Shown in pieces: positions 3,001 through 64,000 of a stretch of 64,000 bases of DNA. Below the pieces are notes generated by a model, which was given only the letters and a program-made list of their open reading frames with translations, searched no databases and was not told where the DNA came from. Position 1 is the first letter of the stretch, and every line of letters starts with the position of its first letter. Made by a program: the position numbers and the translations under genes. Origin of the DNA: Aquilaria yunnanensis (taxonomy: Eukaryota; Streptophyta; Magnoliopsida; Malvales; Thymelaeaceae); the NCBI GenBank assembly GCA_039654915.1, contig CM077597.1:60602001-60666000 (forward strand), given 5' to 3'.

Positions 3001-3066
3001 GTTAAACTTAAGGTTTGAGAGTTAAACCTCTATAGTGATGGGCCAGGGCCTGTGTGAGGTGTGACA
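1..3066 (+). repeat. Partial ~3-kb LTR, + orientation, 5' end outside window
   Basis: Noncoding. Its sequence is matched, in reverse complement, by 18271-21242, which gives the full unit (2972 bp, TG...CA ends). This copy starts roughly 200 bp inside the unit and ends with TGTGACA at 3066. It is inserted into exon 3 of the antisense gene of Tat element A: coding similarity to the other copies resumes exactly at 3067. The short ORFs inside it are not conserved in the second copy and I treat them as chance. No internal retrotransposon sequence is seen, so it is either a solo LTR or the 3' LTR of an element extending left of the window. Confidence 0.75.
737..1735 (+). repeat. Degenerate ~144-bp tandem subrepeats inside the LTR
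   Basis: The motif GGCCGAGAGC or a close variant recurs at about 737, 869, 1013, 1157, 1302, 1446 and 1723, a spacing near 144 bp with one decayed unit around 1585. The sequence between motifs also aligns loosely (recurrent 'ccatg', 'gaacacttg', 'ttgatat' words). The inverted copy at 18271-21242 has the same arrangement. Confidence 0.55.
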
Positions 3067-4629
3067 GCCTCTGTAAGCACCCGCTTTGAAATCTGCTTCG
3101 CCATTTCAGGACAGTCCTCGGAGTACAAGTTCATGTCCTCCGTGAATGTCCAGAAAGGCTCTTTGGGTATCTTCCCTTCCGGGATTTTGGCGTTGCGAAG
3201 GGCCCGCGTCTTCGCGTGTTCGGCAGCCTAGTTCGGAGTAAGCAACTCCCCTGCATAGCGAAAACGAGAAGCAGGTCATAGACAAAGGAAATTTCAGAAA
3301 AACAAAAGAGCTATACTTGTTCTGAAAACAACAAACCTGGCGGCACTTCGACCACAACGTCCTCGGAGTCCTGAGACCCCTCGGTCGAAATCCCCTTACC
3401 TTTCTTCCTGCGCCGCTCCTCGGCAGAAGGAGCCTCTACCACGGCCTCCAGAAGGGCTTGCGGCGCGGAAGGGCTCTGGGGAGGTACGTCGGCAGAAGGA
3501 ACCTCGGCAGCAGCCTCGGTCGGCTGAATCTCGGCTGCCCCAGGCTCCTCGGCAGCCTCCTCAGAATTTTCCTCCAGAGGAACCTGGGCAGTTTTCTTTG
3601 CCCGTTTCGCCGAAGGCCCAGCGCCAGTAGACTTCCGCCTTCGGGAAGCTGCCTTCTTTGTCTGATCGCCCTTCTCCACCTGGCCGGAGAAAAGGGACTT
3701 GTAGAATGCAGCAGTCCCGTCCCCCATCTCTGAAAAAGAAAAAAGACATCAGCGTAAGTCCGAGGGAAAAACTGCAACGGAGTAGAGGATAACTTACTTT
3801 CGAAAATCGTTTCGAAAGAAACTTCCTCCCGAAGAAGCTGCACCAACCAGGAGTCCTTCCCGACGATAGCAGGAGCTGGCATGTCGAGGTCAGTCTCATG
3901 CTCCTTGACCACCCCTAACTCTCGAAGGACCTCTTCGGTCATCAACCTCCAGTTAATGGGCAGGGGGTAGAGGGAGCGTGCAGCGACCTCGGGAGCCCAA
4001 TCGGAGACGGCTCGAATGCGTCCGTCGAAGTCCTCGAACACAGGAGCCAACTCTGGAGTCAGCAGTATCCTCAGATCGACGACGTCCACATTCAGCCTTC
4101 CCCGAGCCCATTTGGTCGGAACATACGACCAGGCCTCATCTATCTACAGGAAGAAGAATTTCTGTTGCCACCCTCGCCAACTGTGCTTAGTGGAAAAAGT
4201 GAACATGAATTTTTTGTTCCCGGATCCCCGAGGTAGCATGAAATAGAAGCCACCCTTCGGGACCACGAAGAGCTTGTAGTACTGCATGAAAATCACAAAA
4301 TGGGGTTTTATCCCGAAGACGCCACACATACAGAGGAAGGCGTTAAAATAGCAGTACGAGTTCGGGGGAAGCTGATTCACAGCAATGCCATGAAATTGGC
4401 AGAACTCGCACACCATATGCGGGGGAGGATACCGAAGTCCGGCCTTCAGCTGGGCTCGAAAAACGGTAACCTCGGTACTATGGTTTGAAAAAGCATAGTG
4501 GTCAGGTCGTGGCAGCCGGGTAACGGCGTAAGAGGGAAGAAAGAACTTCTTCTTCCACCTCTCTAATTTTTTAGGGGTGGTGCAACAAGGATGAGATAAA
4601 AGACGCTGCCAGCTCTCAGGGATAGGCAT
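3067..4629 (-). pseudogene. Antisense ORF of Tat element A (Transposase_28-like), broken
   Basis: Exon 1 runs 4629 to 3798, exon 2 3729 to 3337, exon 3 3250 to 3067; introns have GT/AG ends and intron 1 is 68 bp. The start is the ATG at 4629 (MPIPESW...), shared with B2 and nearly with C (MLIPKSW). Exon 1 encodes the conserved block with FCQFHGIAVNQLPPNSYCYF, then a C-M-C segment and a GG.YFMLPRGSG motif, which I recognise as the 'putative gypsy-type transposon' domain. Exon 2 encodes a basic patch (RRRK...AKRAKK) followed by an acidic Ser/Glu-rich stretch. Breaks: a TAG at about 4146 in exon 1, a TAG replacing a conserved Trp in exon 3, and interruption by the LTR at 3066, which removes exon 4. 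Function of this protein family is unknown; it is not a demonstrated transposase. Confidence 0.7.
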
Positions 4630-47850: not shown

Positions 47851-48795
47851 TCTAGGGTAGTCTAGTTATGGTGTCAAAACTGTTCATTTAAACTCCCAGG
47901 TTTGGTGTGTCCTGTAGGTCATCAGAACAACACTCCTAGTGTACATACTCAAGTGAACCTCTTGAGCACTATGTAAATACATGCATATTGCTCTAACCAT
48001 AAAACACATATTTACATTTATGCTCACTATGGCAGCTAACAAGGAAAACACTAGCACAAGTCTTAGTTTTGGCTTCCATACATTAGGCAGTCTTGTAAAG
48101 TTCTCGTGACCAGCTACTGCACATGTAACTTCCACTAATAAACTGTATCATTATAGCCATATAACCCCTTATTTTATTTGCTCCATTACCATAGAGACAT
48201 CTAGAGCAAACCAAGAAATTTTTTTTTACATCGATAGCCCACCTATGGACCAAATTATTGATTTTTGAAGTTGGTTACAAAATTCTGACTAAATGAACAG
48301 TAACTTAGCCAAATTTGTAATGTCATATCTTTGGTTATAGGCCTCCAAATTTAGAAATTCCTAATCCTAGTTCAAGTTCTAGATGTTCTCTACCTGTGGT
48401 CAAAATTTCATACCAAGATTCCTTCTACACAGGGAGATATAGAACTTTAACTCTAGAGTCAAAATTTTAGCCACTTTATGGCCATTTTGCCCATACAAAA
48501 TTTCATAAGTGTGCAAACACTTCATTCACAAGGGGAAAGCCCTCCACAGCTACCCCATATATGTTCAATATACATAGGGATTACATGCTCTTGCATCTAG
48601 GAACTTTATGTGGCCAAAATAGAATTAACAAGTAAGCAGCCTATCATTCACACTTAGGCAGATTTGCACCACATCACATACATAGCACAAAACATTGCTC
48701 AAATGTTCACATACTTGTCTCATTTTACATACACTATATTCCAATGCATACATGCACTACAATATGGTCTTAGCTCAGCTAAATACGAACCCTAG
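47851..48795 (-). repeat. Noncoding LTR-like fragment D3, cut by the Ogre-type LTR
   Basis: From about 48360 it aligns with 10640-11043 (GTTCTAGATGTTCTCTA, AGGGAGATATAGAACTTTAA). It ends at 48795, where the Ogre-type LTR begins. No coding content; the short ORFs are not conserved. Confidence 0.45.
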
Positions 48796-49059
48796 TGTTG
48801 ACACCCAATTTCGTCCGACTAAAATTTCTTTAAAAAAAAAAATAATAATTAATTAATCAAAATTTAAAGTAAAAAAAAATATATATCATTAATTAATTAA
48901 CTTAAAAGGAAAAAAATAATTAATATAGGGACATTTTTTTATACATATATATTAGTTAATTAATTAAATTAATTAGTTAATTAAAATAATAATAATAATA
49001 ATTAATAATAATAAAAAAAAGGGGAGGGTGGCCGACAGAGGCTCCCCCCCTTATCTCTA

Positions 49060-49330
49060 ATCTTATCTTTCCTCCCTCCACTAACTTCTTCTTCCTCTAC
49101 CAGCTTCTAGGCTCTCTCCCTCTCTGTTTTCTATCTGCTCTCCTTCTCCCTCTCTGTTTCTCTCTCACTCTCTCAAGCTCTCCCAACTGTTCTCTCTCTC
49201 TCTCCCTCTCTAACAGGCAATCGACAGAACTCTCTCACTCTCACCAAGACACTGAGCTCTCTCTTCTCTCTCTCAAAAAACTCTCTTCTCTCTCCCTCTC
49301 AGGTTCTCTCTCTCGGATCTCCCTAAAAAA
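49060..49330 (+). repeat. CT-rich low-complexity tract
   Basis: Long run of TCTCTC/CCTCTC words ending in a poly-A of about 20. Its position downstream of a TATA-like box suggests the transcribed leader of the LTR. Confidence 0.5.
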
Positions 49331-49439
49331 AAAAAAAAAAAAAAAGAACTCTCACGCTCTCAGTCATGAACTACTCTCGCCTCTCCTTCCCGAAAAGAAA
49401 AGAAAAGAAAAAAAACAGAAAACACTCTTCTTCTTCTCC

Positions 49440-49960
49440 CATCCCAGTTCGCCACCGACGCGACCACCATCATCCTCACCTCGTATCGCGCCACCTCCCC
49501 TTCTGCCGCTAGCCAAACCTGCCGTTCCCAAGCGCTCGCCGTGCATCCTGTCCGAGCCCACGGTCGCCGTTTCTAGCTCCCCTCCACCACGCTGTCCTCC
49601 CTCCGTCAGCACAGATAACGTCTCTCCTCCCCACGGCGTCGTTCCCCCTGTTCGCCACGATGCCGTTCCAGCCTCTGCCGACATGTCTTGCTGCTCCCCC
49701 TCTGCCGCCAACCTTTTCTCTTTCTCTGCTTCACCCCACCTCGCCTTGCACTCGCCGCCGCATCGCTTCCTGTTGCTGTCGCTCAGCTTTCCACCAGCCT
49801 CGTCGCTCTCTCGCGTCGCACCAGACCCACGCCTTTCCTCACCTTGCTCTCAGTCGCCCGCCGCTGCCGTGCTCGCGCCATCCCACCTGGCACCTGCGAC
49901 GTATCGTCACCAAGAAAGAAGAAGAAAGAAAAGCAAAAACGCGTCTGGCGTTTTAATTTT
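49440..49960 (+). other. GC-rich block, no recognised gene
   Basis: GC-rich island within an AT-rich LTR. Several overlapping ORFs (for instance 49660-49956 and 49688-50008) are Pro/Ser/Arg-rich and mutually inconsistent. I do not recognise a protein and treat it as LTR sequence. Confidence 0.4.
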
Positions 49961-50441
49961 GATGGAGTCAAAGATTTAAAATTTTTTTTTGGTAAAATCC
50001 TTGTTTAGTCCTTAGCTTTCTTTGTTTTATTTATTTAAGTCACTAACATATTTTATGTTGCAGATTAACCCCCATCAGCAAGATTTTCATTATTCATACT
50101 TTTCTTTGTTTTCTTTATTAATATTGGTTTGACCTTACATAAAATTTGATCATTGAATTGACATGGAAAATAATATAGGATTTTGATTTGATATGTATAT
50201 TCATGTATATTTATTGGATTTTAGAATAGTTTAATTTTTATTTTTGTAATATATTAATCTGTATCAAATTATTGGTTAATTAATATTTAAATTTATTAGA
50301 AATCCGTCCTAAGATGGATCATCTATCCATGTCCAGATGATTCGGTTAGAATCCATGGCTTGGATATTAATTGAAATTATTTAAAATAAAAAAAAATTAA
50401 ATTAAATAAAATTAAATAGCAAAAAAATCCAATCGTGCACC

Positions 50442-50606
50442 GCCAACTACCTCAAAATCAAGGACCTTCTCGAGCTGCTCAACCAAACGATCGCCAAGAG
50501 GATCGAGAACAAGAGCGTCGAGTACGTCAGGAAATTCTTCACTATCGAGAATGATTATACGCCAGAGAAGAAGGCCCACCAGTCGCGACTCGCGTTTGTT
50601 TCTTGA
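50442..50606 (+). pseudogene. SKP1-like C-terminal fragment inside the LTR
   Basis: Reading from 50442, 54 codons encode ANYLKIKDLLELLNQTIAKR followed by a segment ending KFFTIENDYTPEKK and a stop at 50604-50606. This matches the C-terminal end of plant SKP1/ASK proteins (the ANYL.IK.LL.L..QT.A..I and I.NDFTPEEE motifs), the SCF ubiquitin-ligase subunit that binds F-box proteins. Only this end is present, with no start codon. The usual acidic EEEE.VR.EN.WAF ending is altered (EKKAHQSRLAF). Base composition (GC-rich third positions) contrasts with the AT-rich LTR around it, as expected for a captured fragment. It lies in sense orientation. The identification rests on motif recognition without a search. 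Confidence 0.7.
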
Positions 50607-51322
50607 CTCAATCAAATTTTTGGGTAAAATTCTCATTTAGCCCTTGATTCTCTTAGTTTTTATTCATTTAAGTCACTAATGTTCTCCTGTTTTGCATATT
50701 CATCACTGACAGTATTGTTTTATGTTTTTATTTCTTTTTTTGGTTGTTGGTTTATTATTTCAAGAATCATGAATTAGTCTGTGATCAATATTACATAAAA
50801 TTGCAATTTTAGGTTAGGTCAGATTTTTACCTATTTATTTGATTTTAATTTTAATAGTTAGCATAAATTTAAAACTCATGCTTACATAACGTATTTAAAA
50901 AAAAAAGGTCATATTTACGAGATTCAATTCTGAGCAGATTTTAATGAAAATTCAAGGATGAATTTAGGATATTAATAAATTACAAAATCCATATCCAGAT
51001 GATTCGGTTAGAATCTATGGTTTGGATTTTATTTAAAATTGTTTAAAGTAAACAAAAATTAAAATTGAATAACGAAACCCGGATCACAAATCGGCTCGTT
51101 ATTGACCCAGTTATGAAAGTCCATAATTTCAGCATAATTTTAATTTTTACCCCTGCATTTATTTGATTTGTCTAATTGAGATCCTATGTTGTTCTAATTT
51201 GTAATATGGCCATTGGTTTATTGGCATTTATTTCCTTTTATGGATTTGTTTTGTTCAGCAAATTAAAGGCATAAATTCGTTTAGAAATTAACATTAAGCT
51301 TAGGCATAATTAAACATAATTA

Positions 51323-51363
<41 letters not shown>

Positions 51364-52625
51364 ATGGAAGGTTATCCCTCCTATTCATTTCTTTAAAAAA
51401 GTGGATGGCCAAAAAAGCCCCACTTTATTTATTTATATATCATCTTTTGATATTCTTTTGTTTACTTTATGTGTTTTCCCATTATCTATTTGCATGTGTT
51501 ATTTAATTTATGCACCTTTTATTTTCTTAAATGGATGTTCAAAACAAACAAAAAAAAAAAAGAAAACCTCCACTTTATTTATTGTTATTTAATTTTTCTT
51601 TATTTTATGGTTAAACTCATTTCATTTAAAGAAGTTAGCCATAAAAATATATATATATATATAAAATAAATCTGAGCCATGTTGTTAAGTTAAAAATTTT
51701 TTTTTAGTTCATGGTATATTGGCTGGAAACTGTCTCGTGCCCGCTTTTGAGCTGCTTCACCTGGTGAAGAGGGTCTGGCTGAGTAACAACGCCCCGTACC
51801 ATGATCAAAGTTTTTTTTTATTTTTAAACTCTTTGATTCCTTTAAATTAACTTCTTATTAAATAAAAAAATTAATTTTTTTTAATTCTTTTATAAATTGA
51901 GTAATTCTTTAAATAATAAATATCCTTCATTAAACAAGAAAAATAAATAAAAAGAATAGTAAAAGGAAAAGAAAAAGAAAGAAAAGAAAGAAAAGAAAAG
52001 AAAATATAAAGAAAGAAAAATCAAATTTTTAGATTATTAATAAACCTAAAATTTCATAAACAAAAGATTTCCAAATTAATAATTAAACTAATAATTGATT
52101 CCATAAAAATTAAATAATTAACTAAAAATTAAAATAATTTCCATATCCGGATGATCCGGCAGGATCTACGGTTTAGAAAATATCAACCTTTTTAAAATAA
52201 ATAGATTAAATAAAATGATAAAAATCCATATTTACGATATGGATTAATTGACTAAAATTTCGTCAAATTCCGTGTCCAAATGACTCGGCAGAGTCCATGG
52301 TTCGGAATCCAAATCTTCCGTGTCCAAATGACTCGGCAGAGTCCATGGTTCGGAAGTATAAAATTCTATACAAATTAACTTAAAAATCCACATTTTGACT
52401 AATTCAGTTAAAATTTCTAAGTTAACTGAAAATTATTTAAAAGCAAAGCAAAATAAAATTAAAATCAACTAAGGTGCCAATTTTTGGGCGTTTTAACAAA
52501 GTTGTTTTAACGTAACCGTACTCCCGATCCCCGAAATCTCGCAGACCATATTTTAGGTATCCAATCGACCAGAGCGAAAACCGATTGGTGGCGACTCCCG
52601 AAAAAGACCCGCACGTTGCCACAGC

Positions 52626-52645
52626 TTGGCGACTCCGCTGGGGAC
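52626..52645 (+). other. Ogre-type primer binding site
   Basis: TTGGCGACTCCGCTGGGGAC starts 2 bp after the LTR CA end. This is the form of PBS known from Ogre elements (reported as complementary to tRNA-Arg). It fixes the element's direction (+) and shows that 48796-52623 is a 5' LTR. Confidence 0.75.
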
Positions 52646-55194
52646 ACGGTTAGTGAGTCGAGCCTAAAACTTGATTTGTTTTGTTTTGCTTTGTTTATTT
52701 TTATGTGGATTTATATGTTATATTTACTTATTCTAAACATGCATAATGCATTCACAATATGGAGCTCTATACCCGAGCTTCCTCAAATCGAACACGTTCT
52801 TTCTAAGCGGAATTGGTGTTGTTGTCCTTGAGAGGCCATGGTCTCCAAGCCTTCACCGGTTTCAAAGTAGCAAAGTAGTGTATTGCCTCCTGAGACGGTT
52901 AGTCTCTGCATGGGCCCACGAAAAGCTACGACTCGAATTAATCCATTCCTTACATTAACCCTAGAGGGTAAGGAATCGGGCCGTCACTATGATTTAGTGA
53001 CGGGATTCGGGAACTATCCCTTGCCTTTTTGATAAGCCACCTTATGCATATAGAACTCCTCACTTAACCATAGAACTGACCATAGAATTTCTACCATTTT
53101 ACCAACGCCATAAGCATATCCTTGTTATGCTGTGTTGTTACTCTACACTTTTCTTCGTATGGTTTTAACTTGTTTATCCATAATACTTCATGAGTTGTTA
53201 ATTACTATTTAACTTGTTAATAACCTTATTTTTCTTTTGTTATACTTCCGTTCTGTGCAATTATTCTTCATGCATCAAAACCACGCATCAAATTATGCTA
53301 ACTTTTTGGTCTTTATAATGATAACTAGAAGTCTTGAAGTTTCACAATAGTTGATAATCTAGCTCACTCATTGCATGCATCCATTGCATCAATCATATAC
53401 ATGTAAAATCTAATAAAATCAATCTCACTTTAAAAAAAGTAAAATTGGATCTCAACACCAATATCCAACTTGACTCCAAACAAGACTAATGGCAGAGCAA
53501 ACCAAAAGACATCTTACAGATATTGAGTCCAACATAGAACATGGCCGGAGCAATTCCCTCCTCATTACACCAAAAAATGAAATTCATTATTGACAGAAAG
53601 TTAATCACAGTTTTGGCTGAAGAAAGCATTCTGCTATCATTTATATCAATAGTAGCAAAGACCAAGTGACCTTCTCTTCCAAGTTGGTGTGACTCAAATC
53701 TCAAATGTAACTGAAAATTCTGTCATATTGAAACTCAAGGTCCAACAGTTGGTCGAGTCCAAGTTGCTAGGCCCGATGTGATTGGTAATTGAAAGTGAAG
53801 ATTTTGAGCTGGAATTACATTAATCTTGGAAGGGCTCTAAGTCAGATCTGACCTAACAGTCCGCACACACTTTTGAATGACAGGGAATCCTTTGAATAAA
53901 CTTGTATCTTTGAAAGCTTGCAAAAGTAATTTAATAGTAAAAATCTCCTAGATTTAGTCCAGAATCTAGGGTGTAGTCTTTGTTAAATGGACACCTGCTA
54001 TTCTTTTTCTGGTACAACAAAAAGATGTAATGCGTGCATTCTACTACTTTCCATTTTTACACTCTTTGCCATTATACTATCCATTATTGCCATCACACTT
54101 TACTTTTCGACAACCGGTAATTCTTTTTGTTCTCTAACAAAAAGATGTTGCGTGTGCATTCTACCACTTTTTAATCCCATTATTACTTCTACACATTCTA
54201 CCAATTTTTACCAAAAATTCAATTATTACACCTACACATTCCACCACTTCTTACCAAAAATTCCGTTTTTACATCCATCTCTCACTCATTTCCATTATAC
54301 TATCCATTATTGCTATCATACTTTGCTTTCTAAATGATACTACTCGTGGGTGAAAATAAAAAGTTAAGGGAGATTTAATAGTGGCGATCTTGAAAGTGTT
54401 GTCAAATCTAGTAAGAAGGATTTCATATGTTGCACCCCAACTCTCAAAAAAGAATTCATAGTGGTTATCAACATCCTTGCAAGAAGTCTGGGGTTAGCTT
54501 CCAAACAAGGTAGCTCTCATATTAAATGACTTCAGTGGCCTCCCAATTCTCACAAATGCTCAATACAAAAAAAAGATTCTCAGTTTTCCGCAACACAAAT
54601 TCCAACAAAGGAAAGAAGTTCATCCCTTCCATCAAAAGCCATTAAAGGGAAAATCCAAAACAAAAAAAAAAGAGACTGAGAGCAAACACAAGCAAGTAAG
54701 GCCACTTGAATCATCTCATTTCAAGAAGGCTATGATCTCGGTTCTCTGTAACAAAAACTCCGAAAAGGAAAAAGTTCATCTCTTCCATCAAAAAGCCAAC
54801 AAGGAAAAATTCAAAACCAAAAAGAACTGAGAACAAGCACGAGCAAGCAAGGCCACTTGAGTCATCTCACTTCAAGAGAGTTATCAAGTATGTCATCACC
54901 ATAGCTCACAAAAAAAAAATAACAAAAAAACAAAAAAAAAACAACAAAACAAAAAAAAAGAGGAAAAAGGGCTCAAACTAGAGCAAAAGTAAAAAAAAAA
55001 AAAAAAGAAAAAAAAGTGAGCTATGGATTCTAGACTGAAAACCGGCAAAGGCGGTTTAGAACACAAAAGCAACCCTCGAACCAAGCATACATAAAGACCA
55101 CGATAGTTGGGGGGCAACAGATGAGGTTTAACTTTCTGGAAAGAGTGGCAAGTTTGAGGTCATCACTATTGAGTTTTTCATCATAATCAAATTT

Positions 55195-55665
55195 GCTCAC
55201 GAGTAGTATTAAAAGACCCTTCTTTCAAACCACTTAAACTTAACTTTCCTCAGACTTATCATCCTCATTCAGCTAAAAGACTATCATTGTGAAATATGTT
55301 TCTACCTTATTTAATACTGCTCACGAGTAGTATTAAAAGACCATTCTTTCACACCACTTAAATTTAACTTTCCTCAGACCTAACATCCTCATTCAGTTAA
55401 AAGACTATCATTGTGAATCATGTTTCTACCTTATTTAATACTGCTCACGAGTAGTATTAAAATACCCTTCTTTCACACCACTCAAACTTAACTTTACTTA
55501 GACCTAATATTTACCTCTTAATATTATTCTCATTCAGCTAAAAGACTGCCACAAAAAAAAAACATTCAAACTTAACTTTCCTCACACCTAACATTTACCT
55601 CTCGATATCATCCTCATTCAGTTAAAAGGATATTATTGTGAATCATGTTTCTACCTTATTGCCTT
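55195..55665 (+). repeat. 124-bp tandem repeat, three to four copies
   Basis: GCTCACGAGTAGTATTAAAA recurs at 55195, 55319 and 55443, each followed by CTTTCACACCACT, CTTTCCTCAGACC and TCATTCAG.TAAAAG words; a fourth, altered copy ends near 55665. Confidence 0.7.
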
Positions 55666-56599
55666 GCACAGTTTATGTCTTCGAGTTGGAAAGGGAAGAA
55701 TGGCAGGATATTTTAATTGAAAACAAAGACCGTAAATTACTTTGTCAAGCTTTGCAAATTGATGAAAGTTTTTCTTTAAGGCCAAACCATTATTCATTAA
55801 TGTATGTAGACTTAAAAGTGAGGAGATAGCTTGAGTCTTTCTTTAATAAGATGTGGTTCTTGTAAGAGAAATTTACGATCAAGTGCCATCACAAAGGTCT
55901 AGAAATGCTCGACCTTCTGTTAAAGGCGAGGTGATACCTTTTATCCACATAAATACCATATTCAGGGGGCAAAGTAGTCTCTACTAAGCGTAAGAAGAGT
56001 ACTGCCAAGAAAGAAGCTCAATAGACAAGGGGGCAAGTCTTATGGATCAAAACATGAGTTCAAGGAAGAGCAATCATTCAGATTATAACATGGGGATAAG
56101 TAAGTGTCGGCACGGTCACAAGAAAAGGGGCAAAGCAGACATTGAAAGTAAAGCCTTTGATGGTATCAAATCCATGACAAGGGATGAGTACCCAAAGAGA
56201 CATAAAGTATGAGGCAGGCAAACATTAAAGAAATTGAAGCCAAAATTCAAAGAACAAGTCAAAGAAAGAGGATTTTGAAAAGAGTTGGGCTTTTGAGGCA
56301 GCAAACAAAAGCTGGAAAGGATAAAGAGATTCAATGATAGTCCAAGAAGGCCATCACAAAGAGGATCCAGTAAAACAAAGACATAAAGAACTAGATCCAT
56401 ACAAAAAAAAGCCATTAGTTACACATGCTCTGCATTCATGCATTTCATATCATGCATACATAGCCTTTACATAACAAGGACCAAACGGGAATCACATTCA
56501 CAGCACAGTTACAGCAGTATAAGCTGAGATCTCAATGTCATCAGCTCTTACCAATCTATCACTGGATACACAGCTAATATGCGGGACCAACCCGCATCA

Positions 56600-56990
56600 G
56601 GAATTCAAGGATAAAGTAGACAATGTTGTCAAAAGCTTGGCTACCGATTCAATAATCGAGGCTACACCTGGAAGGATAGGATTGACGCCAGCTAGTAGTA
56701 TCCAAGATAAGAGATAGCTATAGCCAAGGATAAGGCAGATATCAAAAAAAATATAAAGTAGACAATATTGTCAAAAGCCTGGCAATTGATTCAATAATCG
56801 AGGCTACACCTGGAAGGACAGGATTGATGCCAGCTTAGCAGCATCCAAGATAAGAGATAGCTGTGGTCAAAGATAAGGCAGACATCAAGAAATATTGTCG
56901 TTGAAACTTTGTCAAAAGCGGACAAAAGATTCAATAATCAAGGACTCGATCGACGTCAGCTCGATGGAATATCCAAGATAAAAAAATATC
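56600..56990 (+). repeat. ~140-bp tandem repeat, three diverged copies
   Basis: The words ATTGTCAAAAGC, GATTCAATAATCGAGG and ATCCAAGATAAGAGATAGCT recur about every 130-145 bp. Confidence 0.55.
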
Positions 56991-57129
56991 TATCACATCA
57001 AAATGAAGTAGGATCCACTTTTCCGGTTAAACGGCGGATACAGTATTCCGTGACTCTCAAGTCGGTTCTCTCAGTTGCCCATAATAACTGATTCTTTCCT
57101 CTCTTCTGTCTTTTACTTCCCTCTAGAAA

Positions 57130-57678
57130 ATGGATCCTACTCTTTCTGTCTTAAGAAAATATTTTCCTTCTCTCCCAATGAACATTCTCAAAAAGATCTA
57201 CCAAGTTCGCTGTGAACGATTAAGAGTTCTGATGCACAAAGGAATCCCTGAAGATGTGCGGTGGTTAATCGAAGCCAAGGTTCGTCTGGCAGGTGAAATC
57301 CCAGAGGCATTTGTGTCTCACATGCCTGGTATAGGCAAAAGCTCTTATGCCAAAAAGCGAAGAGCGAAAAGGTTACAAGTCTGCCATAAATGTGGACGGT
57401 GGACTTGTAATACTAAATGTCGTTCTTTAGGGATGATCTCCGATAATCGAGAAGATAAAATACGATTCATCAAGAATGGCCTAAGTAAGGACTCATTGGA
57501 TGATATCCGATTGACTCTTGAGACACATTCTTGTGGATCAGTGCAACACGAACTTCTTGGTTTATGGAGTATTTTTCATGAAGAACGAGAGCGTTACAGT
57601 CCCGGGAATCTGACTTTAAATGACCCTGTTTGCCAGCTTGTAAGAAAGCTGGATGGGAAGCAAACCCTCGACTCATAG
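57130..57678 (+). CDS. Basic Cys4 zinc-finger protein 1, carlavirus CRP-like
   Basis: 182 aa, single exon, intact. N-terminal ~65 residues: LSVLRKYFPSLPMNILKKIY and RCERLRV, then GIP.DVRWLIEAKVRLAGE. Residues ~66-100: MPGIGKSSYAKKRRAKR, a strongly basic stretch, directly followed by C85-x2-C88-x4-C93-x3-C97 and RSLG. Residues 105-182: NREDKIRFIKNGL, HSCG, GLW and LNDPVCQLVRKLDGKQ. The basic run next to a Cys finger, followed by an F-I-K-G segment, is the arrangement of the nucleic-acid-binding cysteine-rich proteins of carlaviruses and relatives (Carla_C4 / Viral_NABP families), some of which suppress silencing or alter host transcription. That link is my inference from motif order; the N- and C-terminal parts are extra. 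Two paralogues follow in tandem. The upstream segment (57030-57100) resembles that of gene 2, but no clear TATA box is seen. Confidence 0.7.
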   Translation: MDPTLSVLRKYFPSLPMNILKKIYQVRCERLRVLMHKGIPEDVRWLIEAKVRLAGEIPEAFVSHMPGIGKSSYAKKRRAKRLQVCHKCGRWTCNTKCRSLGMISDNREDKIRFIKNGLSKDSLDDIRLTLETHSCGSVQHELLGLWSIFHEERERYSPGNLTLNDPVCQLVRKLDGKQTLDS

Positions 57679-57719
57679 AAGCCGTTAATGCCGTTACTAG
57701 ACGTAAAGCCAGTGGAAGA

Positions 57720-57848
57720 TGTGAGTCACAGTCACAATTACTGTACATACAGTTTGTTATATTTGGAAAAGTTTGCATTTTCTTTTGACAGATGTACATG
57801 CTCCCCTAAGTGTAATCGACACGTTATCCCTTTTCATCACTATAAATG
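57720..57848 (+). promoter_or_regulatory. Intergenic promoter block of zinc-finger gene 2
   Basis: Holds one copy of the 'CACAGTCACAATTACTGTACAT' type unit and ends in GTTATCCCTTTTCATCAC and TATAAAT (57841-57847), 121 bp before the ATG at 57968. The same CATCACTATAAAT block precedes gene 3. Confidence 0.6.
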
Positions 57849-57967
57849 CGTGTTCTTCCTTCTGATTAAGCAGCAGATAAGATACCTCGTGACTTCTAAA
57901 GTCGGTTATTCCAGTCTCCTACAATAACTGATTCATTTCCCTCTTCTCTCAAATTCTTCTCTCATCA

Positions 57968-58426
57968 ATGGATTCTACTCTTTCTGCACTGCAAAAATAC
58001 TTTCCTTCCCTTCCAATAAAAGTCCTTAAAAAGATCTACCTTGCTAGATGTGAAAGAATCAGAGTTTTTACACGCAAAGGCATTCCCGATAATGTGCAGT
58101 GGATAATTGAAGCTAAGGTCCATTTGGCAGGTGAAGTTCCAGATGCATTTATGCCCCGCATGCCCGGTTTAGGTAAAAGCCGTTATGCCAAAAGGCGAAG
58201 AGCAAAGAGACTAGGCGTGTGTTATAAATGTGGGCGATGGAATTGTATTACTAAATGTCGCTCTTTAGGATACATCTCCAGAAATCGTGAAGATAAAAGA
58301 AAATTCATTAAGAATGGCCTGCGTAAGGAATCTCTGGAAGATATCCGAGAGACTCTTGAAACGCATTCTTGTGGAAAAGTGCAAGGTGAAATTATCGGTT
58401 TATGGAGGACTTACCATAAAGAATGA
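57968..58426 (+). CDS. Basic Cys4 zinc-finger protein 2, truncated by a stop
   Basis: 152 aa to a TGA at 58424-58426. Same plan as its neighbours: LSALQKYFPSLPIKVLKKIY, GIP.NVQWIIEAKV, GKSRYAKRRRAKR, then C-x2-C-x4-C-x3-C (CYKCGRWNCITKC), NREDKRKFIKNGL, HSCGKVQ. At the position where genes 1 and 3 have an Arg codon (CGA), this copy has TGA. The sequence downstream is still homologous and in frame up to a TAG after PDL at about 58514-58516, so the loss of about 30 C-terminal residues looks recent. The zinc finger and basic region are intact, so a shortened protein could still be made. Confidence 0.65.
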   Translation: MDSTLSALQKYFPSLPIKVLKKIYLARCERIRVFTRKGIPDNVQWIIEAKVHLAGEVPDAFMPRMPGLGKSRYAKRRRAKRLGVCYKCGRWNCITKCRSLGYISRNREDKRKFIKNGLRKESLEDIRETLETHSCGKVQGEIIGLWRTYHKE

Positions 58427-58554
58427 AATCGTTACAGTCATGGGAATGTGATTTTAAACGACCCTGTTTGTCAGTTTGTAAGGAAACTGGATGGGAAGCA
58501 AATCCCCGACTTATAGAAGGCATTGAAGCCATTACTGGACATAAATCAGTGGAA

Positions 58555-58674
58555 GATGAGAGCCACGGTCATGATTCCTGTACATATAAGCTGTCATTTG
58601 TCTTTTCTTTTGACAATAATGTACTTGCTTCTGTAAGTGTAATTAACGCATTATCCCTTTCATCACTATAAATA
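58555..58674 (+). promoter_or_regulatory. Intergenic promoter block of zinc-finger gene 3
   Basis: Matches 57720-57848: CACGGTCATGATTCCTGTACAT, then ATTATCCCTTTCATCAC and TATAAAT (58667-58673), 60 bp upstream of the ATG at 58733. Confidence 0.6.
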
Positions 58675-58732
58675 TGTGTTAGTTATTTTCGTTTCCTACA
58701 ATCACTAATTTCTTTCTTTGCCTCCTTCATCA

Positions 58733-59281
58733 ATGGAGTCTTCTCTTTCCGCCCTACGAAAGTATTTTCCTTCCTTCCCAATAAATGTTCTTAAAAAGAT
58801 TTATCAAGCTAGATGTGAACGATTCAGAGTATTTATGCACAAAGGCATTCCTGATAATGTGCGGTGGCTAATCGAAGCTAAGGTTTGTTCAGCTGGTGAA
58901 GTTCCAGAAGCGTTCTTTCCCCGTATGCCCGGCTTTGGTAAAAGCGCTTATGCCAAAAAAAGAAGAGCAAAGAGGCTAGACGTTTGTCATAATTGTGGAT
59001 GGTGGATTTGCGGCAATAAATGTCGTTCTCCAAGAGTGATCACCAGAAATCGTAATGATAGAATAAGATTCATTAAGAATGGCTTGCGTAAGGAATCTCT
59101 AGAAGATATTCGAGAGGTTCTTGAAGCGCATTCTTGCGGAATAGTGCAATTTGAGGTTGTTGGATTATGGATAATTTTCCAAAAAGAACGAGATCGTTAC
59201 AGTCTTGGGAATCTGACCCTAAACGACCCTGTTTGCCAGTTTGTGAGAAAACTGGATGGGAAGCAAATCCCCGATTCGTAA
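58733..59281 (+). CDS. Basic Cys4 zinc-finger protein 3, intact
   Basis: 182 aa, single exon, intact. The start at 58733 (MESSLSALRKYF) aligns with the other two genes; an in-frame ATG at 58718 would add five residues absent from them. Contains YAKKRRAKR followed by CHNCGWWICGNKC (C-x2-C-x4-C-x3-C), then NRNDRIRFIKNGL, HSCGIVQ and LNDPVCQFVRKLDGKQ. Compared with gene 1, the sampled nucleotide differences are rich in synonymous third-position changes while the basic/finger region is kept, which hints at past purifying selection. Same family inference as for gene 1. Confidence 0.7.
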   Translation: MESSLSALRKYFPSFPINVLKKIYQARCERFRVFMHKGIPDNVRWLIEAKVCSAGEVPEAFFPRMPGFGKSAYAKKRRAKRLDVCHNCGWWICGNKCRSPRVITRNRNDRIRFIKNGLRKESLEDIREVLEAHSCGIVQFEVVGLWIIFQKERDRYSLGNLTLNDPVCQFVRKLDGKQIPDS

Positions 59282-59324
59282 AAGGCATTGAAGCCGTCCC
59301 TGGACATAAAACCAGTAGAAAACG

Positions 59325-59740
59325 TGAACTACGGTCATGACTACTGTACAGGCTAGTTGTCACTTTTCAAAATTTTTCCTTCTCTTCTGACAAATGATGT
59401 ACCTGCTCCTGACGTGATCCACAGTCACGATTACTGTACATGCTAGCTGTCGCTTTTGAAATTATCCTCCCAATAATGTACCCACTCCTGACATGAGATA
59501 CAGTTATGATTACTGTATATAGCTGCCACTTTTTAAAATTTTCCTTCTCTTCCAACAATCACGTACCTACTCCTGACGTAAGCTACAGTAGTGACTACTG
59601 TACATGCTAGCAGCTATTTTGAAAATTTTCCTCCTCTTTTAACGATAGTGTACCCATACCTGACCAAAGTCATACTTGTGACTACTGTGAATAGCTGGCA
59701 ATAATGTATCCATTCTTGAAAATAAAATTATTGCCTTATC
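59325..59740 (+). repeat. About five ~85-bp intergenic units upstream of LOG, with TGACG motifs
   Basis: The ACTACTGTACA-type core recurs at about 59340, 59431, 59511, 59596 and 59681. Between cores lie GCTAGCTGTC, CTTTT.AAAATTTTCCT, AATAATGTACC and CTCCTGACGT words. TGACG occurs at 59410-59414 and 59574-59578 (as CTGACGTGA and CTGACGTAAG), resembling as-1/ocs-type bZIP sites. The same unit occurs once in front of genes 2 and 3, so it has been amplified here. Confidence 0.65.
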
Positions 59741-59750
59741 TCTTCATCTC

Positions 59751-59760
59751 TATAAATATA
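59751..59760 (+). promoter_or_regulatory. TATA box of the LOG gene
   Basis: TATAAATATA preceded by CCTTATCTCTTCATCTC, a variant of the block in front of genes 2 and 3. It lies 40 bp upstream of ATG 59791, implying a very short leader. Confidence 0.6.
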
Positions 59761-59790
59761 TCCTCTTTTCTCACAAGGGTAAGAATAGGA

Positions 59791-60420
59791 ATGGAGAAAA
59801 CCCCAACTCGTAAATCCCGAAGTATTTGTGTATTTTCTGGGGCTTTTCCTGGAAAAGATGAAGAGTATTTAAAGGCAGCCAACCATTTGGGTAGAGTATT
59901 AGCTGAGCGAAAAATACATTTAGTTTATGGAGGAGGTAGTGTCGGATTAATGGGAGGTGTAGCATCAGCAGCATCTTTAGGAGAAAGTCAAGTTTTGGGC
60001 ATCATCCCTGGACCTTTGAAATTTGTTTCTAGGGGCACGATTGGAGAAGAATTAGTGGTTAAAAATTTGCAAGAGCGTGTGTTACAAATGCTTTTAAATG
60101 CTGATGCTTTTATCGCTCTACCAGGTGGTTTTGGCACATTGGGAGAAGTCTTTCAAATTGCTTCCATGGCCCAACTTAATTTGCATAAGAAACCCATTGG
60201 GCTTTTAAATGTTAACAATTTCTTTACAGGTCTGATAGCTTTTATGGATTATGCTATGCAGAAGAATTTCATATCAAGAGTGGCACGGCGAATCATAATA
60301 TCCGCAACAACTGCTGAAGAATTGCTAGATAAAATACAAGCTTTTGTTCCTGAACCAGATCCAGCAATGATTCAGATAGACTGGACACGACAGTCTTTCC
60401 CGACCAGTTCACTCCCATAA
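59791..60420 (+). CDS. LOG-like: LOG-type cytokinin riboside 5'-monophosphate phosphoribohydrolase
   Basis: 209 aa, intronless and intact. Family reaction: releases active free-base cytokinin from its nucleotide by removing ribose 5'-phosphate, normally in the cytosol. Visible motifs: SICVFSGAFPGKDEEY at the N-terminus; GGGSVGLMG (47-55); VLGIIPGPL; the loop NLQERVLQM with the conserved Arg (R96), although the usual RK pair is RV here; and the signature PGGFGTLGE (111-119) with catalytic Glu119, then ASMAQLNLHKKPIGLLNVN. Length is that of plant LOGs. I chose ATG 59791 because the earlier in-frame ATG (59704) lies upstream of the TATA box. Ordinary plant LOG genes have several introns, so this looks like a retrocopy or a captured gene. 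It is co-directional with the zinc-finger genes and shares their promoter type. Confidence 0.85.
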   Translation: MEKTPTRKSRSICVFSGAFPGKDEEYLKAANHLGRVLAERKIHLVYGGGSVGLMGGVASAASLGESQVLGIIPGPLKFVSRGTIGEELVVKNLQERVLQMLLNADAFIALPGGFGTLGEVFQIASMAQLNLHKKPIGLLNVNNFFTGLIAFMDYAMQKNFISRVARRIIISATTAEELLDKIQAFVPEPDPAMIQIDWTRQSFPTSSLP

Positions 60421-60960
60421 TGGTCCTCTACTCACCCTGTTGAAGTATTGTGGAAGAAAGAAGCGATCTGATCCGTTTTTCTTGTCCTTTAGTTTTATTA
60501 TCAGCATTTTCTTTTGCGTTTCAGTTTTTCTTTTCAAGGAATTTCTTTTTTTATAAGATAGTTTCGTCCATACTGATATTAAAACAATAGGACAATGCCT
60601 TTAGGTTGGAATGGTTGAGTAAAGAGTAATTTTTATTACTCTTGAGACGCATCCTATTAGGTCTACTAGGCATAACATTTTGGGGTAGTTAAGTTTTAAC
60701 CTTATTCGGATGACATATCTCACAAGGGAATCTATATTTACAGAAGAAAATATTAGATTAACCTTGAATATTGATTCCAAACATCCGTTCCCTTTACATA
60801 ATTTGTCAGTGTTATTGTCATCATCAAGATTCACTCATCTTATCGAAGTTTAAATTTTTGCACTCACCTATTATGAAAATTCACACTTTCGAAGAAAATT
60901 ATTCCAATTTCAATTGCTTTCATATAAATTTCGCTCGAGGTCCTAAGGAAAGCTACTTAG
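60421..60960. other. LOG downstream region, no gene
   Basis: AT-rich 3' flank. A T-rich stretch near 60475-60560 could hold poly-A signals. No coding content recognised. Confidence 0.45.
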
Positions 60961-61615
60961 CCTCAAAATCAATTTTCATCATCGGGGTTTTAAGGATGGA
61001 ACCTTTGCCTCAAAAATAATCAATCTTCATCATCGGGGTTTTAAGGATGGAACCTTTGCATCGAAAACAATCAATTTTCATCATCGGGGTTTTAAGGATG
61101 GAACCTTTGCCTCGAAAACAATCAATCTTCATCATCGGGGTTTTAAGGATGGAACCTTTGCCTCGAAAACAATCAATTTTCATCATCGGGGTTTTAAGGA
61201 TGGAACCTTTGCCTCGAAAATAATCAATTTTCATCATCGGGGTTTTAAGGATGGAACCTTTGCCTCGAAAACAATCAATTTTCATCATCGGGGTTTTAAG
61301 GATGGAACCATTGCCTCGAAAATAATCAATTTTCATCATCGGGGTTTTAAGGATGGAACCTTTGCCTCGAAAACAATCAATTTTCATCATCGGGGTTTTA
61401 AGGATGGAACCTTTGCCTCGAAAATAATCAATTTTCATCATCGGGGTTTTAAGGATGGAACCTTTGCCTCGAAAATAATCAATTTTCATCATCGGGGTTT
61501 TAAGGATGGAACCTTTGCCTCGAAAACAATCAATTTTCATCATCGGGGTTTTAAGGATGGAACCTTTGCCTCGAAATCAATCAATCAATCTGAGGTTTTA
61601 AGGATGGAACCTTTG
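60961..61615 (+). repeat. 51-bp tandem array, about 12-13 copies
   Basis: Unit contains TCATCATCGGGGTTTTAAGG and ATGGAACCTTTGCCTCGAAA, repeating every 51 bp from about 60976 to 61538, with a final altered copy at 61590. Because 51 is a multiple of three, a 177-codon ORF stays open on the - strand (61010-61543); I do not regard it as a gene. The GGGGTTTTAAGGA...CCTTTGCCTC part forms a weak inverted repeat related to that in the next array. Confidence 0.85.
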
Positions 61616-64000
61616 CCTCGAGATCAATCAATCATTCAGTCCATCTTACAACGATAGAACCTTTCCTATCGTTAGAGGTTCTAAGGACCTTTCCTTAACC
61701 TCAAACAAACAAACAATCAATCATTCAGTCCATCTTACAACGATAGAACCTTTCCTATCGTTAGAGGTTCTAAGGACCTTTCCTTAAACCTCAAACAAAC
61801 AATCAATCATTCAGTCCATCTTACAACGATAGAACCTTTCCTATCGTTAGAGGTTCTAAGGACCTTTCCTTAAACCTCAAACAATCAATCATCAATTTTT
61901 CTTAAACGATAAGAGAGTTCTTATCGCAGAGGTTCTAAGGTAGGGCCCTTAACCTCAAACTTTCAACGATAGAAGGGTTCCTATCGTCGAGGTTCTAAGG
62001 TAGGGCCCTTAACCTCAAACTTGCAACGATAGGAGAGTTCCTATCGTCGAGGTTCTAAGGAGAGTTCCTTAACCTCAAACAATCAATCATTCAGTCCATC
62101 TTACAACGATAGAACCTTTCCTATCGTTACAGGTTCTAAGGACCTTTCCTTAACCTCAAACAAACAATCAATCATTCAGTCCATCTTACAACGATAGAAC
62201 CTTTCCTATCGTTAGAGGTTCTAAGGACCTTTCCTTAAACCTCAAACAAACAATCAATCATTCAGTCCATCTTACAACGATAGAACCTTTCCTATCGTTA
62301 GAGGTTCTAAGGACCTTTCCTTAACCTCAAACAAACAATCAATCATTCAGTCCATCTTACAACGATAGAACCTTTCCTATCGTTAGAGGTTCTAAGGACC
62401 TTTCCTTAAACCTCAAACAAACAATCAATCATTCAGTCCATCTTACAACGATAGAACCTTTCCTATCGTTAGAGGTTCTAAGGACCTTTCCTTAAACCTT
62501 ATACAAACAATCAATCATTCAGTCCATCTTACAACGATAGAACCTTTCCTATCGTTAGAGGTTCTAAGGACCTTTCCTTAACCTCAAACAAACAATCAAT
62601 CATTCAGTCCATCTTACAACGATAGAACCTTTCCTATCGTTAGAGGTTCTAAGGACCTTTCCTTAAACCTCAAACAAACAATCAATCATTCAGTCCATCT
62701 TACAACGATAGAACCTTTCCTATCGTTAGAGGTTCTAAGGACCTTTCCTTAACCTCAAACAAACAATCAATCATTCAGTCCATCTTACAACGATAGAACC
62801 TTTCCTATCGTTAGAGGTTCTAAGGACCTTTCCTTAAACCTCAAACAAACAATCAATCATTCAGTCCATCTTACAACGATAGAACCTTTCCTATCGTTAG
62901 AGGTTCTAAGGACCTTTCCTTAAACCTCAAAAAACAATCAATCATTCAGTCTATCTTACAACGATAGAACCATTCCTATCGTTAAACCTCAAACAAACAA
63001 TCAATCATTCAGTCCATCTTACAACGATAGAACCTTTCCTATCGTTAGAGGTTCTAAGGACCTTTCCTTAACCTCAAACAAACAAACAATCAATCAGTCA
63101 GTCCATCTTACAACGATAGAACCTTTCCTATCGTTAGAGGTTCTAAGGACCTTTCCTTAAACCTCAAACAAACAATCAATCATTCAGTCCATCTTACAAC
63201 GATAGAACCTTTCCTATCGTTAGAGGTTCTAAGGACCTTTCCTTAAACCTCAAACAAACAATCAATCATTCAGTCCATCTTACAACGATAGAACCTTTCC
63301 TATCGTTAGAGGTTCTAAGGACCTTTCCTTAAACCTCAAACAAACAATCAATCATTCAGTCCATCTTACAACGATAGAACCTTTCCTATCATTAGAGGTT
63401 CTAAGGACCTTTCCTTAAACCTCAAAAAACAATCAATCATTCAGTCTATCTTACAACGATAGAACCATTCCTATCGTTAAACCTCAAACAAACAATCAAT
63501 CATTCAGTCCATCTTACAACGATAGAACCTTTCCTATCGTTAGAGGTTCTAAGGACCTTTCCTTAACCTCAAACAAACAAACAATCAATCAGTCAGTCCA
63601 TCTTACAACGATAGAACCTTTCCTATCGTTAGAGGTTCTAAGGACCTTTCCTTAAACCTCAAACAAACAATCAATCATTCAGTCCATCTTACAACGATAG
63701 AACCTTTCCTATCGTTAGAGGTTCTAAGGACCTTTCCTTAAACCTCAAACAAACAATCAATCATTCAGTCCATCTTACAACGATAGAACCTTTCCTATCG
63801 TTAGAGGTTCTAAGGACCTTTCCTTAACCTCAAACAAACAATCAATCATTCAGTCCATCTTACAACGATAGAACCTTTCCTATCGTTACAGGTTCTAAGG
63901 ACCTTTCCTTAAACCTCAAACAAACAATCAATCATTCAGTCCATCTTACAACGATAGAAGTTTTCCTATCGTTAGAGGTTCTAAGGACCTTTCCTTAACC
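61616..64000 (+). repeat. 85-86-bp hairpin-bearing tandem array to window end
   Basis: About 26-28 copies. Each unit has AACGATAG-(8 nt)-CTATCGTT, a perfect 8-bp stem, followed by a second inverted repeat GAGGTTCTAAGGA...TCCTTAAACCTC, joined by ACAATCAATCATTCAGTCC. Three variant units at 61890-62080 have TTCTTATCG or GGGTTCCTATCG forms. Extends past 64000. Confidence 0.85.
62925..63990 (+). repeat. Higher-order 495-bp repeat within the array
   Basis: A shortened unit with GAACCATTCC and missing second hairpin occurs at about 62967 and 63462; a CAATCAGTCAGTCC variant occurs at about 63091 and 63586. Both pairs are 495 bp apart, so a block of several units was duplicated. Confidence 0.65.

Follow-up and report, generated by a model that had tools for sequence, protein, structure and literature searches.

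In the analysed window, a stretch of DNA of 64,000 nucleotides, we identified a derivative of an Ogre-type LTR retrotransposon that has lost gag-pol by deletion; its leader retains scraps of the protease gene. Its sole recognisable genes are accessory ones, three for predicted virus-type nucleic-acid-binding proteins (NABPs) and one for a predicted LOG-type cytokinin riboside 5′-monophosphate phosphoribohydrolase. The element is non-autonomous, present in high copy number and young, a point absent from the first-pass annotation of this DNA, whose observation we otherwise confirm except for the stated gene position and whose interpretation holds in part. The reading that we favour, with a probability of roughly 60 %, is that this derivative multiplied recently, that its NABP and LOG genes were kept since they help it to spread, and that the gene module is older than the element.

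An Ogre derivative without gag-pol

All four ORFs are enclosed by a complete LTR element of 20.4 kb, the 3′ LTR of which lies beyond the window (Table 1). The LTR and PBS noted in the first-pass annotation are both real, and the extension past position 64000 that it proposed located the 3′ LTR; the gag-pol also sought there gave no match inside the element (best E 0.03). The LTR pair is 98.9 % identical (blastn; 18 mismatches over 3800 aligned bases), and the TSD has its partner copy after the 3′ LTR (C5:60671160-60671164). A G-rich, PPT-like tract precedes the 3′ LTR, and the tandem repeats continue to C5:60667252, ~100 bp short of it. We take the PBS sequence to be of Ogre type and assigned to tRNA-Arg. 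The Ogre PBS is described as antisense to tRNA-Arg (PMC9289625).

Table 1. Positions of the element's features; plain numbers are window positions, those with the prefix C5 or C1 genome positions.
Feature	Position	Strand	Basis or remark
TSD CCTAG	48791..48795		printed sequence contexts
5′ LTR, TGTTGACACC...CCACA	48796..52623	+	blastn vs 3′ LTR
5′ untranslated region common to pol-bearing Ogre copy C1:2021180	52624..53091	+	alignment with L050
PBS TGGCGACTCCGCTGGGGA	52627..52644	+	sequence
Ogre protease relic	53541..53639	+	reading frame kept, 88 % DNA identity
Relic of Ogre protease ORF end / start of pre-RT gap	53910..53987	+	81 %
Three patches matching the stretch 3′ of Ogre integrase	55720..56340 (55720-55753, 56180-56319, 56305-56340)	+	vs L053
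NABP1 leader	57019..57129	+	homologous to integrase-NABP leader of comparison locus L001
NABP1 (predicted), 182 aa	57130..57678	+	ORF, Pfam
TATAAAT 5′ of NABP2	57841..57847	+	motif scan
NABP2, broken, 152 aa	57968..58426	+	ORF, Pfam
TATAAAT 5′ of NABP3	58667..58673	+	motif scan
NABP3, 182 aa from ATG at 58733	58733..59281	+	ORF, Pfam
Four diverged ~78-90-bp block copies upstream of LOG	59303..59688	+	related to block 3′ of each NABP
TATAAAT 5′ of LOG	59751..59757	+	motif scan
LOG-type gene (predicted), one ORF, 209 aa	59791..60420	+	
Tandem repeats, 51-bp, then 60/86-bp units	60967..64000		continue beyond the window
3′ LTR	C5:60667358-60671159		outside window

One Ogre copy shares the LTR end and PBS with the window element. 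It was read in pieces with gaps (C1:2020700-2049700) covering LTR end, PBS and leader, protease to RVT_3, integrase, and NABP1. Its LTR end, PBS and leader are 90.8 % identical to window positions 52268-53091 over 837 columns, which bears out the earlier placement of the genes in an Ogre-type LTR element. The copy encodes a protease with G-patch and, after an ORF break, RT-RNaseH and a second RNase H (RVT_3), so that protease and RT onwards stand in two ORFs with a short gap between them (L049:1-1311 and 1506-3500). A family member in reverse orientation interrupts its integrase, and NABP1 lies in its 3′ part as an open frame with 93.5 % DNA identity to the window NABP1; in this one copy the pol genes stand upstream of NABP1, and neither gag nor LOG was seen in the pieces read.

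The G-patch after the protease, the split pol ORFs and RVT_3 of this partner resemble the Ogre lineage (Ty3/gypsy, non-chromovirus, Tat clade), as do the long LTRs, the Ogre-type PBS and the tandem repeats in the 3′ region. Gag-pol of its own, with the extra RNase H that Ogre has between RNase H and integrase, was not found in the window element, which is therefore an Ogre derivative and not an Ogre proper. It also differs in having NABP and LOG in its 3′ part: the genes had been placed at the gag or Ogre extra ORF position, but gag-pol is deleted and the position is a 3′ one. Among the Ogre eORF domains named in the available part of PMC6317226 is the plant mobile domain, and NABP and LOG are not among them.

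With two LTRs, PBS, PPT-like tract, TSD, multiple copies and no gag-pol, the element is LARD-like. LARDs are large non-autonomous LTR derivatives with a conserved but non-coding interior. The window element is likewise large, has complete LTRs and PBS, lacks gag-pol and was presumably mobilised in trans, but genes for accessory proteins remain in it, subject to purifying selection and with their own TATA boxes. Because identical LTR pairs occur without gag-pol, we infer mobilisation in trans by full-length Ogres; those with the common LTR end and primer site would supply the proteins that move the derivative.

Copies in the genome

The element was amplified recently. A pattern search of the 842-Mb genome found the exact junction of LTR end and PBS at 2353 places, and a reversed control pattern at 0. 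For the LTR end plus leader we obtained 4580 candidate places, and the 40 scored showed 92-100 % identity. NABP3 gave 8923 candidate places; all 150 scored were at least 96 % identical and stop-free, a conservation far above chance. LTR pairs of five elements differ by 18/3800, 9/3731, 0/3363, 0/2748 and 6/2542 mismatches.

The first-pass annotation had asked whether other copies of the LTR carry the genes or whether these belong to an older locus. All six copies that were read through lack gag-pol (those besides the window element screened at E<=1e-5) and retain LOG together with two or three NABP genes, and 20 of 20 further copies, picked by NABP3, hold NABP and LOG ORFs. That the LTR was inserted into an older host gene cluster is hardly credible: no supporting evidence was found, and in 5/5 elements with both ends read the genes lie between the LTRs and perfect 5-bp TSDs lie outside both, so the LTR did not enter an older gene locus.

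Regarding the single genes in these 20 copies, all picked by intact NABP3, a full-length LOG ORF is present in 18, which is not an unbiased rate because of this choice. The middle NABP is a 182-aa ORF in 14 and absent from three, as it is from L022/L023, and NABP1 has an ORF of at least 177 aa in 12. Among 26 aligned copies, 12 have an in-frame stop in NABP1. This gene is thus often broken, in both samples at about the rate expected of an unconstrained gene at 3 % change (0.49).

The NABP and LOG genes and selection on them

Three proteins of ~182 aa had been proposed for the window; this holds for NABP1 and NABP3, but a premature stop cuts NABP2 short at 152 aa. All three pass the cut-off of PF05515 (Viral_NABP; 31.2, 34 and 34 bits, cut-off 23) and two that of PF01623 (Carla_C4; 20.9), NABP3 falling below it at 19.8. 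By these profiles the NABPs have their relatives among the silencing suppressors of flexuous plant RNA viruses, which bind nucleic acid. They resemble the suppressors of carlaviruses, vitiviruses and allexiviruses in scoring above curated Pfam cut-offs, but are longer (182 aa), have a conserved C-terminal block (GNLT..DPVCQ..RKLDGK) and are encoded by retroelements. Foldseek against BFVD, with a query model of pLDDT 61.9, gave no match at E<=0.001; among the best 34 of 42 matches, all weak and from a poor model though specific, 27 bear the name of a plant-virus silencing suppressor or nucleic-acid/RNA-binding protein, 13 of these 27 being called 'RNA silencing suppressor'. In the comparison locus L001, similarity to the NABP1 leader begins 4 bases past an acceptor-like AG.

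Membership in the viral families PF05515/PF01623 could also suggest that the sequence is not of element genes but an endogenous, betaflexivirus-like insertion of a plant RNA virus. We regard this as extremely improbable, as no other viral gene was seen among the element ORFs of at least 120 aa inspected by eye, LOG is of plant type, and the sequence has thousands of candidate places, its LTR/TSD-bounded copies contradicting a viral origin of the locus.

The LOG ORF had been given as 238 aa from 59704. The likelier start is the one in Table 1, because the conserved TATA box falls after the ATG at 59704. The protein scores 105.8 bits with PF03641 (cut-off 27), closely matches solved plant LOGs (2a33, E 2e-49; 1ydh, E 2.7e-45) and is of plant type. 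It keeps the catalytic-type Arg (LQERVLQM) and the Glu of PGGxGTxxE (PGGFGTLGE), residues whose roles we presume. PGGFGTLGE stands in place of the ...EE form, the first Glu of the pair being lost. The Lys following the catalytic-type Arg, present in 4/4 solved LOGs compared, is also lost, and was found in 0/25 element-type LOG rows with a readable motif.

A TATAAAT motif precedes NABP2, NABP3 and LOG, in line with the earlier suggestion that these genes share a promoter block. In the 20 other copies it lies upstream of 36/36 scorable later NABP genes and 19/19 LOG genes (55/55 combined) and before the first NABP in 5/15 scored, with a chance expectation of 0.13 per 170 bp. Because these boxes are conserved, the later NABPs and LOG are probably driven by their own TATA promoters, and the first NABP may be expressed from the LTR transcript.

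Among the six gag-pol-less copies, dN/dS was 0.206 for NABP1, 0.152 for NABP3 and 0.175 for LOG; as these copies already lacked gag-pol, the range of 0.15-0.21 measures change after the deletion. With 22-26 copies the values were 0.203 (NABP1), 0.43 (NABP2), 0.114 (NABP3) and 0.169 (LOG), and the window NABPs gave 0.18-0.31 between themselves and 0.18-0.24 against L001. Judged by these ratios, purifying selection has kept the NABP and LOG genes in the copies compared, and selection among copies could partly be selection on unseen masters. Retention under such selection in copies without their own reverse transcriptase would mean that the genes help the copies to spread.

The genes might instead be passengers, captured once and carried neutrally, their low dN/dS being left from a viral and cellular past. 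The NABP1 stops, the broken window NABP2 with its dN/dS of 0.43 and the copies without the middle NABP would fit this; it is nevertheless improbable, given the low ratios among copies already without gag-pol, the persistence of TATA boxes and gene order, and that of the module in several plant families.

Origin of the module and its possible roles

The module is older than the window element, and in Athila-like elements of other eudicots it also stands behind the integrase. In Citrus, Melia, Populus, Orobanche and Pterospermum, NABP comes after an Athila-like polyprotein, unlike in Ogre; this occurrence, too, is absent from the first-pass annotation. The Athila-like elements carry pol and, in some gene models, also gag. 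Athila is told from Tat by the absence of a second RNase H after RT-RH (PMC6317226), and one such element (gene prediction P0244) has RVT_1, RT_RNaseH, H2C2 and rve and no RVT_3. Since NABPs are 54-71 % identical between hosts whose RTs share 36 %, the module probably passed between element lineages by recombination, in a direction that we infer.

RNA silencing and DNA methylation are regarded as the main controls on plant retrotransposons, and LOG enzymes activate cytokinin in cells. In the reading we favour, NABPs would most likely bind element RNA or small RNAs in the cell that makes them and so weaken silencing there, and LOG would increase active cytokinin locally, keeping the meristematic or gamete-forming cells that express it in division. 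These anti-silencing and cytokinin roles, like the biochemical functions and the benefit to the element, are presumed.

The genes may serve the element differently: NABP could chaperone or package RNA in the manner of a nucleocapsid, compensating for Ogre Gag or competing with it, and LOG could have another activity; we hold this possible, if unlikely. The basic character of NABP, its Cys4 cluster and its presence in an element that lacks gag speak for this, its three copies could mean dosage, and the lost Lys of the element-type LOGs would suit another activity. However, LOG retains the Arg and Glu, and NABP is not merely a gag replacement, because the pol-bearing Ogre copy and Athila-like elements, some with gag, carry it too.

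Also unlikely is a two-part system in which full-length Ogres give gag-pol, the far commoner partner without gag-pol contributes virus-type suppressors and a cytokinin-activating enzyme for common use, and the two-gene module moves among eudicot retrotransposon lineages like a retroviral accessory cassette at the env position. If true, the retrotransposon 'parasite' would be a provider of anti-silencing and host-cell-growth functions, its suppressors being encoded by several genes under internal TATA promoters.

To our knowledge, there are hardly any documented cases of LTR elements that encode counter-measures to silencing. In the present element, which presumably depends on another to move and has many young copies, purifying selection keeps two candidates for manipulating the host, one of them from a suppressor family of plant viruses. 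It can thus be tested whether a retrotransposon encodes a working silencing suppressor and a hormone enzyme. Steinbauerova et al. in 2011 reportedly described two Athila-like elements similar to LOGL4. The first-pass annotation was aware of no published element that combines these genes; this needs narrowing, since a LOG (YgdH) domain is already in print as an extra ORF in Citrus and poplar Ty3/gypsy consensus sequences (PMC9289625). From those, as far as they are described there, ours differs in the NABP partner, the Ogre host, the gag-pol-less amplified form, the selection test and the census. In the literature searched we found neither the NABP-LOG module nor its transfer, nor its persistence in elements that lack gag-pol.

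Elements of orchids that are related to Ogre have captured an m6A demethylase, a domain also found in flexuous RNA viruses (PMC9289625). They are likewise of Tat/Ogre type, and the gene they captured could influence control at the RNA level, but it is a different gene, in a single ORF, and gag-pol is present. Some of the genes annotated as 'LOG' or 'viral nucleic acid binding' in plant genomes may belong to elements. Surveys may have missed the module because NABP (182 aa) and LOG (~210-217 aa) fall under the minimum of at least 250 codons at which extra ORFs were counted in PMC6317226.

Structure and age of the element

All four genes proposed by the first-pass annotation are present as open reading frames, three for virus-type nucleic-acid-binding proteins (NABP1-3) and one for a cytokinin-activating-type enzyme (LOG), and they lie inside an LTR element of about 20.4 kb. 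All three NABPs passed the curated Pfam cut-off of PF05515 (Viral_NABP) and two of the three that of PF01623 (Carla_C4); the units are tandem duplicates with start-to-start spacings of 838 and 765. LOG scored above the PF03641 cut-off and matched LOG-type proteins of Arabidopsis whose structures are solved (2a33, E 2e-49). The C-terminal NABP block GNLTLxDPVCQFxRKLDGK (residues 157-177 of NABP3) is among the most conserved parts of the protein and lies outside the Cys cluster. The block found 3′ of each NABP forms four repeats ahead of LOG (59303-59688), which could possibly be regulatory. Rfam returned no matches within 48000-64000.

Features of the element (window positions unless a contig is named; TSD, target site duplication)
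Feature	Position	Remark
5′ LTR	48796-52623	TSD CCTAG alongside
NABP1	57130-57678	real ORF
NABP2	57968-58426	real ORF, broken at 152 aa in window copy
NABP3	58733-59281	real ORF
LOG	59791-60420	real ORF
3′ LTR	C5:60667358-60671159, beyond window	TSD CCTAG alongside

Reading on past position 64000, where a 3′ LTR and gag-pol had been expected, recovered the LTR, and gag-pol is absent from the element (best E 0.03 with the Tat gag and pol of the window and the integrase of L001, an Athila-like plant contig, as queries); the same Tat query recovered the reverse transcriptase (RT) of an Ogre piece, L049, at E 6e-79. The two LTRs differ by 18 mismatches per 3800 aligned bases. Five further copies, on C1, C2, C3, C7 and C8, show the identical order of LTR, leader, NABPs, LOG, tandem repeats and LTR, so the LTR does carry the same genes elsewhere in the genome, as had been predicted; all six copies were found via NABP3 matches. 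No gag-pol was found in these five, and the C3 copy has two NABPs, not three. LTR pairs differ at 9/3731 positions in C2, 0/3363 in C3, 0/2748 in C7 and 6/2542 in C8, each of these copies having a perfect 5-bp TSD; the start of the 5′ LTR of the C1 copy lies outside the sequence read, and it gives no LTR-pair figure. From the similarity of the LTR pairs, the TSDs and the absence of gag-pol it follows that the window element is young and recently mobile and has no polymerase of its own. The TSD-bounded copies also rule out both an older host locus hit by an LTR insertion and an integrated virus, and the genes belong to the LTR element, as first proposed. Scans of viral contigs, one for NABP and one for LOG, turned up no relative.

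Copy number and the Ogre partner

The NABP3 query gave 8923 candidate places in the genome, and all 150 that were scored, distributed over C1-C9 and C48, matched at 96-100 % without a stop. The LTR end plus leader gave 4580 candidates (40 scored, 92-100 %) and the exact 26-base pattern of LTR end and primer binding site (PBS) 2353 places against 0 for the reversed control, the copy-number figures being counts of junctions common to the derivative and its Ogre partner, not of intact derivatives. Same-orientation NABP3 pairs lie 13.7-15.1 kb apart at C1:105013480/105028624, C2:9365166/9379870 and C4:79428812/79442476. As the spacing of the C1 pair (15,144) equals that from LTR to LTR (15,143), adjacent elements probably share one LTR in a tandem array.

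Two LTR-end/PBS junctions were read irrespective of gene content. The one at C1:1065375 has a relic leader and NABP1-3, and the one at C1:2021180 opens an Ogre copy, the partner, whose LTR end, PBS and first leader (L050) are 91 % similar to the window. Downstream (L049) come a protease with G-patch, an ORF break, RT, RNase H and a second RNase H (RVT_3), followed by an integrase piece split by a member of its own family lying in reverse (L051 121-2707 and L052, C1:2030320-2034400); because this member sits inside the partner's integrase, the derivative inserts into its own partner. Piece L053 resembles window 55720-56340 in patches, and L054 holds NABP1 in the partner's 3′ part with an open frame and 93.5 % DNA identity, which rules out that the module is confined to the derivative. 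The pieces L049-L054 were joined as one element by order and spacing, with gaps between them; the pieces read contain no gag, no LOG and no integrase end.

The window leader holds scraps of the partner's protease with the frame kept (53541-53639 and 53910-53987), and after them patches of the region that follows the integrase. Judged from this order of relics, the NABP genes occupy the 3′ part of the element, and the derivative originated by loss of gag-pol. The 5′ slot (ORF1/gag) assigned to the genes by the first-pass annotation is therefore wrong, given these relics and NABP1 in the partner's 3′ part.

Selection, expression signals and the LOG enzyme

Among the six gag-pol-less copies, dN/dS (Nei-Gojobori) was 0.206 for NABP1, 0.152 for NABP3 and 0.175 for LOG, with a non-coding divergence of 0.05-0.07 versus 0.05-0.15 at synonymous sites. 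In 22-26 copies the ratios were 0.203 for NABP1, 0.43 for NABP2, 0.169 for LOG and 0.114 for NABP3, the last biased by how the copies were chosen. Two findings speak against selection: constraint on NABP2 is weak, and an in-frame stop is present in 12 of 26 NABP1 sequences; random substitution at 3 % would be expected to leave about half of the copies stop-free. In 20 further copies, ORFs were retained for LOG (at least 209 aa) in 18, for NABP1 (at least 177 aa) in 12 and for the middle NABP (182 aa) in 14. By these counts only NABP3 looks better kept than LOG, and the function may reside in the later NABPs.

TATAAAT occurs at fixed distances upstream of the later NABPs and of LOG, in 36 of 36 and 19 of 19 scored cases respectively; TATA-like sites precede the first NABP in 5 of 15 cases. 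In L001 a pyrimidine tract with AG lies four bases ahead of the start of the NABP leader, and the similarity of the window to this leader begins at the same point (57019), suggesting former expression of the first NABP via a spliced message.

A selection of 39 element-type LOGs from the best matches separates (98/98) from four other LOGs, two of them from Arabidopsis and two from bacteria. They retain the Arg and Glu that we take to be catalytic. The Lys after this Arg is absent in all 25 rows, out of 39, where the motif is readable, and to extend its loss to all element-type LOGs would be too broad. Plant LOG genes contain introns; as a single ORF, the element LOG fits capture from a spliced message. 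An Athila end motif noticed by eye after LOG was rejected, its score of 30 (third of 638 windows, best 31) not being above background.

The module in other plants and earlier work

NABP-LOG is a real and widespread accessory module of plant retrotransposons, kept here by a recently multiplied gag-pol-less Ogre derivative. Among 20 NABP matches from long gene models, the only ones searched, 16 carry gag or pol domains by a precomputed listing; they come from Citrus, Melia, Orobanche, Pterospermum and Populus, and for several of them sequences and domains were checked directly. Four models join NABP then LOG or have both domains (P0088, P0108 and P0253 of Citrus, P0120 of Acer). In L001, which by eye resembles P0252 of Melia, NABP directly follows the integrase ORF. 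This contig (DAIEQH010000041.1) is plant retrotransposon DNA that contaminates a Candidatus Nomurabacteria assembly. Among the 120 LOG matches listed, at least 36 (P0128 and 35 more) are LOG-like proteins of Reevesia pubescens, spread over many chromosomes and probably encoded by elements, though the annotation treats them as host proteins.

The NABP-bearing model P0244 looks Athila-like rather than Tat, since it has no RVT_3. The Citrus, Melia and Populus polyproteins are 69-77 % identical among themselves, with 36 % identity to the RT region of the Ogre; between their NABPs and those of the window the identity is 54-71 %. As the NABPs are more alike across hosts than their vehicles, the comparison points to transfer of the module between element lineages, in either direction. 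The window NABPs form a single clade (100/99) in a midpoint-rooted tree of 48 rows, 36 of them without known context. The data show structure, copy number and selection, and the likeliest reading of the sequences is that the module would provide anti-silencing and cytokinin functions and that the derivative would be mobilised in trans.

Steinbauerova et al. (2011) reportedly agree with a YgdH/LOG domain in Ty3/gypsy elements. PMC9289625 describes this domain from poplar and two Citrus species, in consensus sequences of Ty3/gypsy elements, and an extra-ORF survey took ORFs of at least 250 codons (PMC6317226). No report of NABP in retrotransposons was found in the literature searched, most subscription papers being outside its reach. 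Several more Tat-type elements lie at window 3259-45999, with repeated long ORFs containing the string FCQFHGIAVNQLPPNSYCYFN. These ORFs presumably resemble Retand's extra ORF, Transposase_28.
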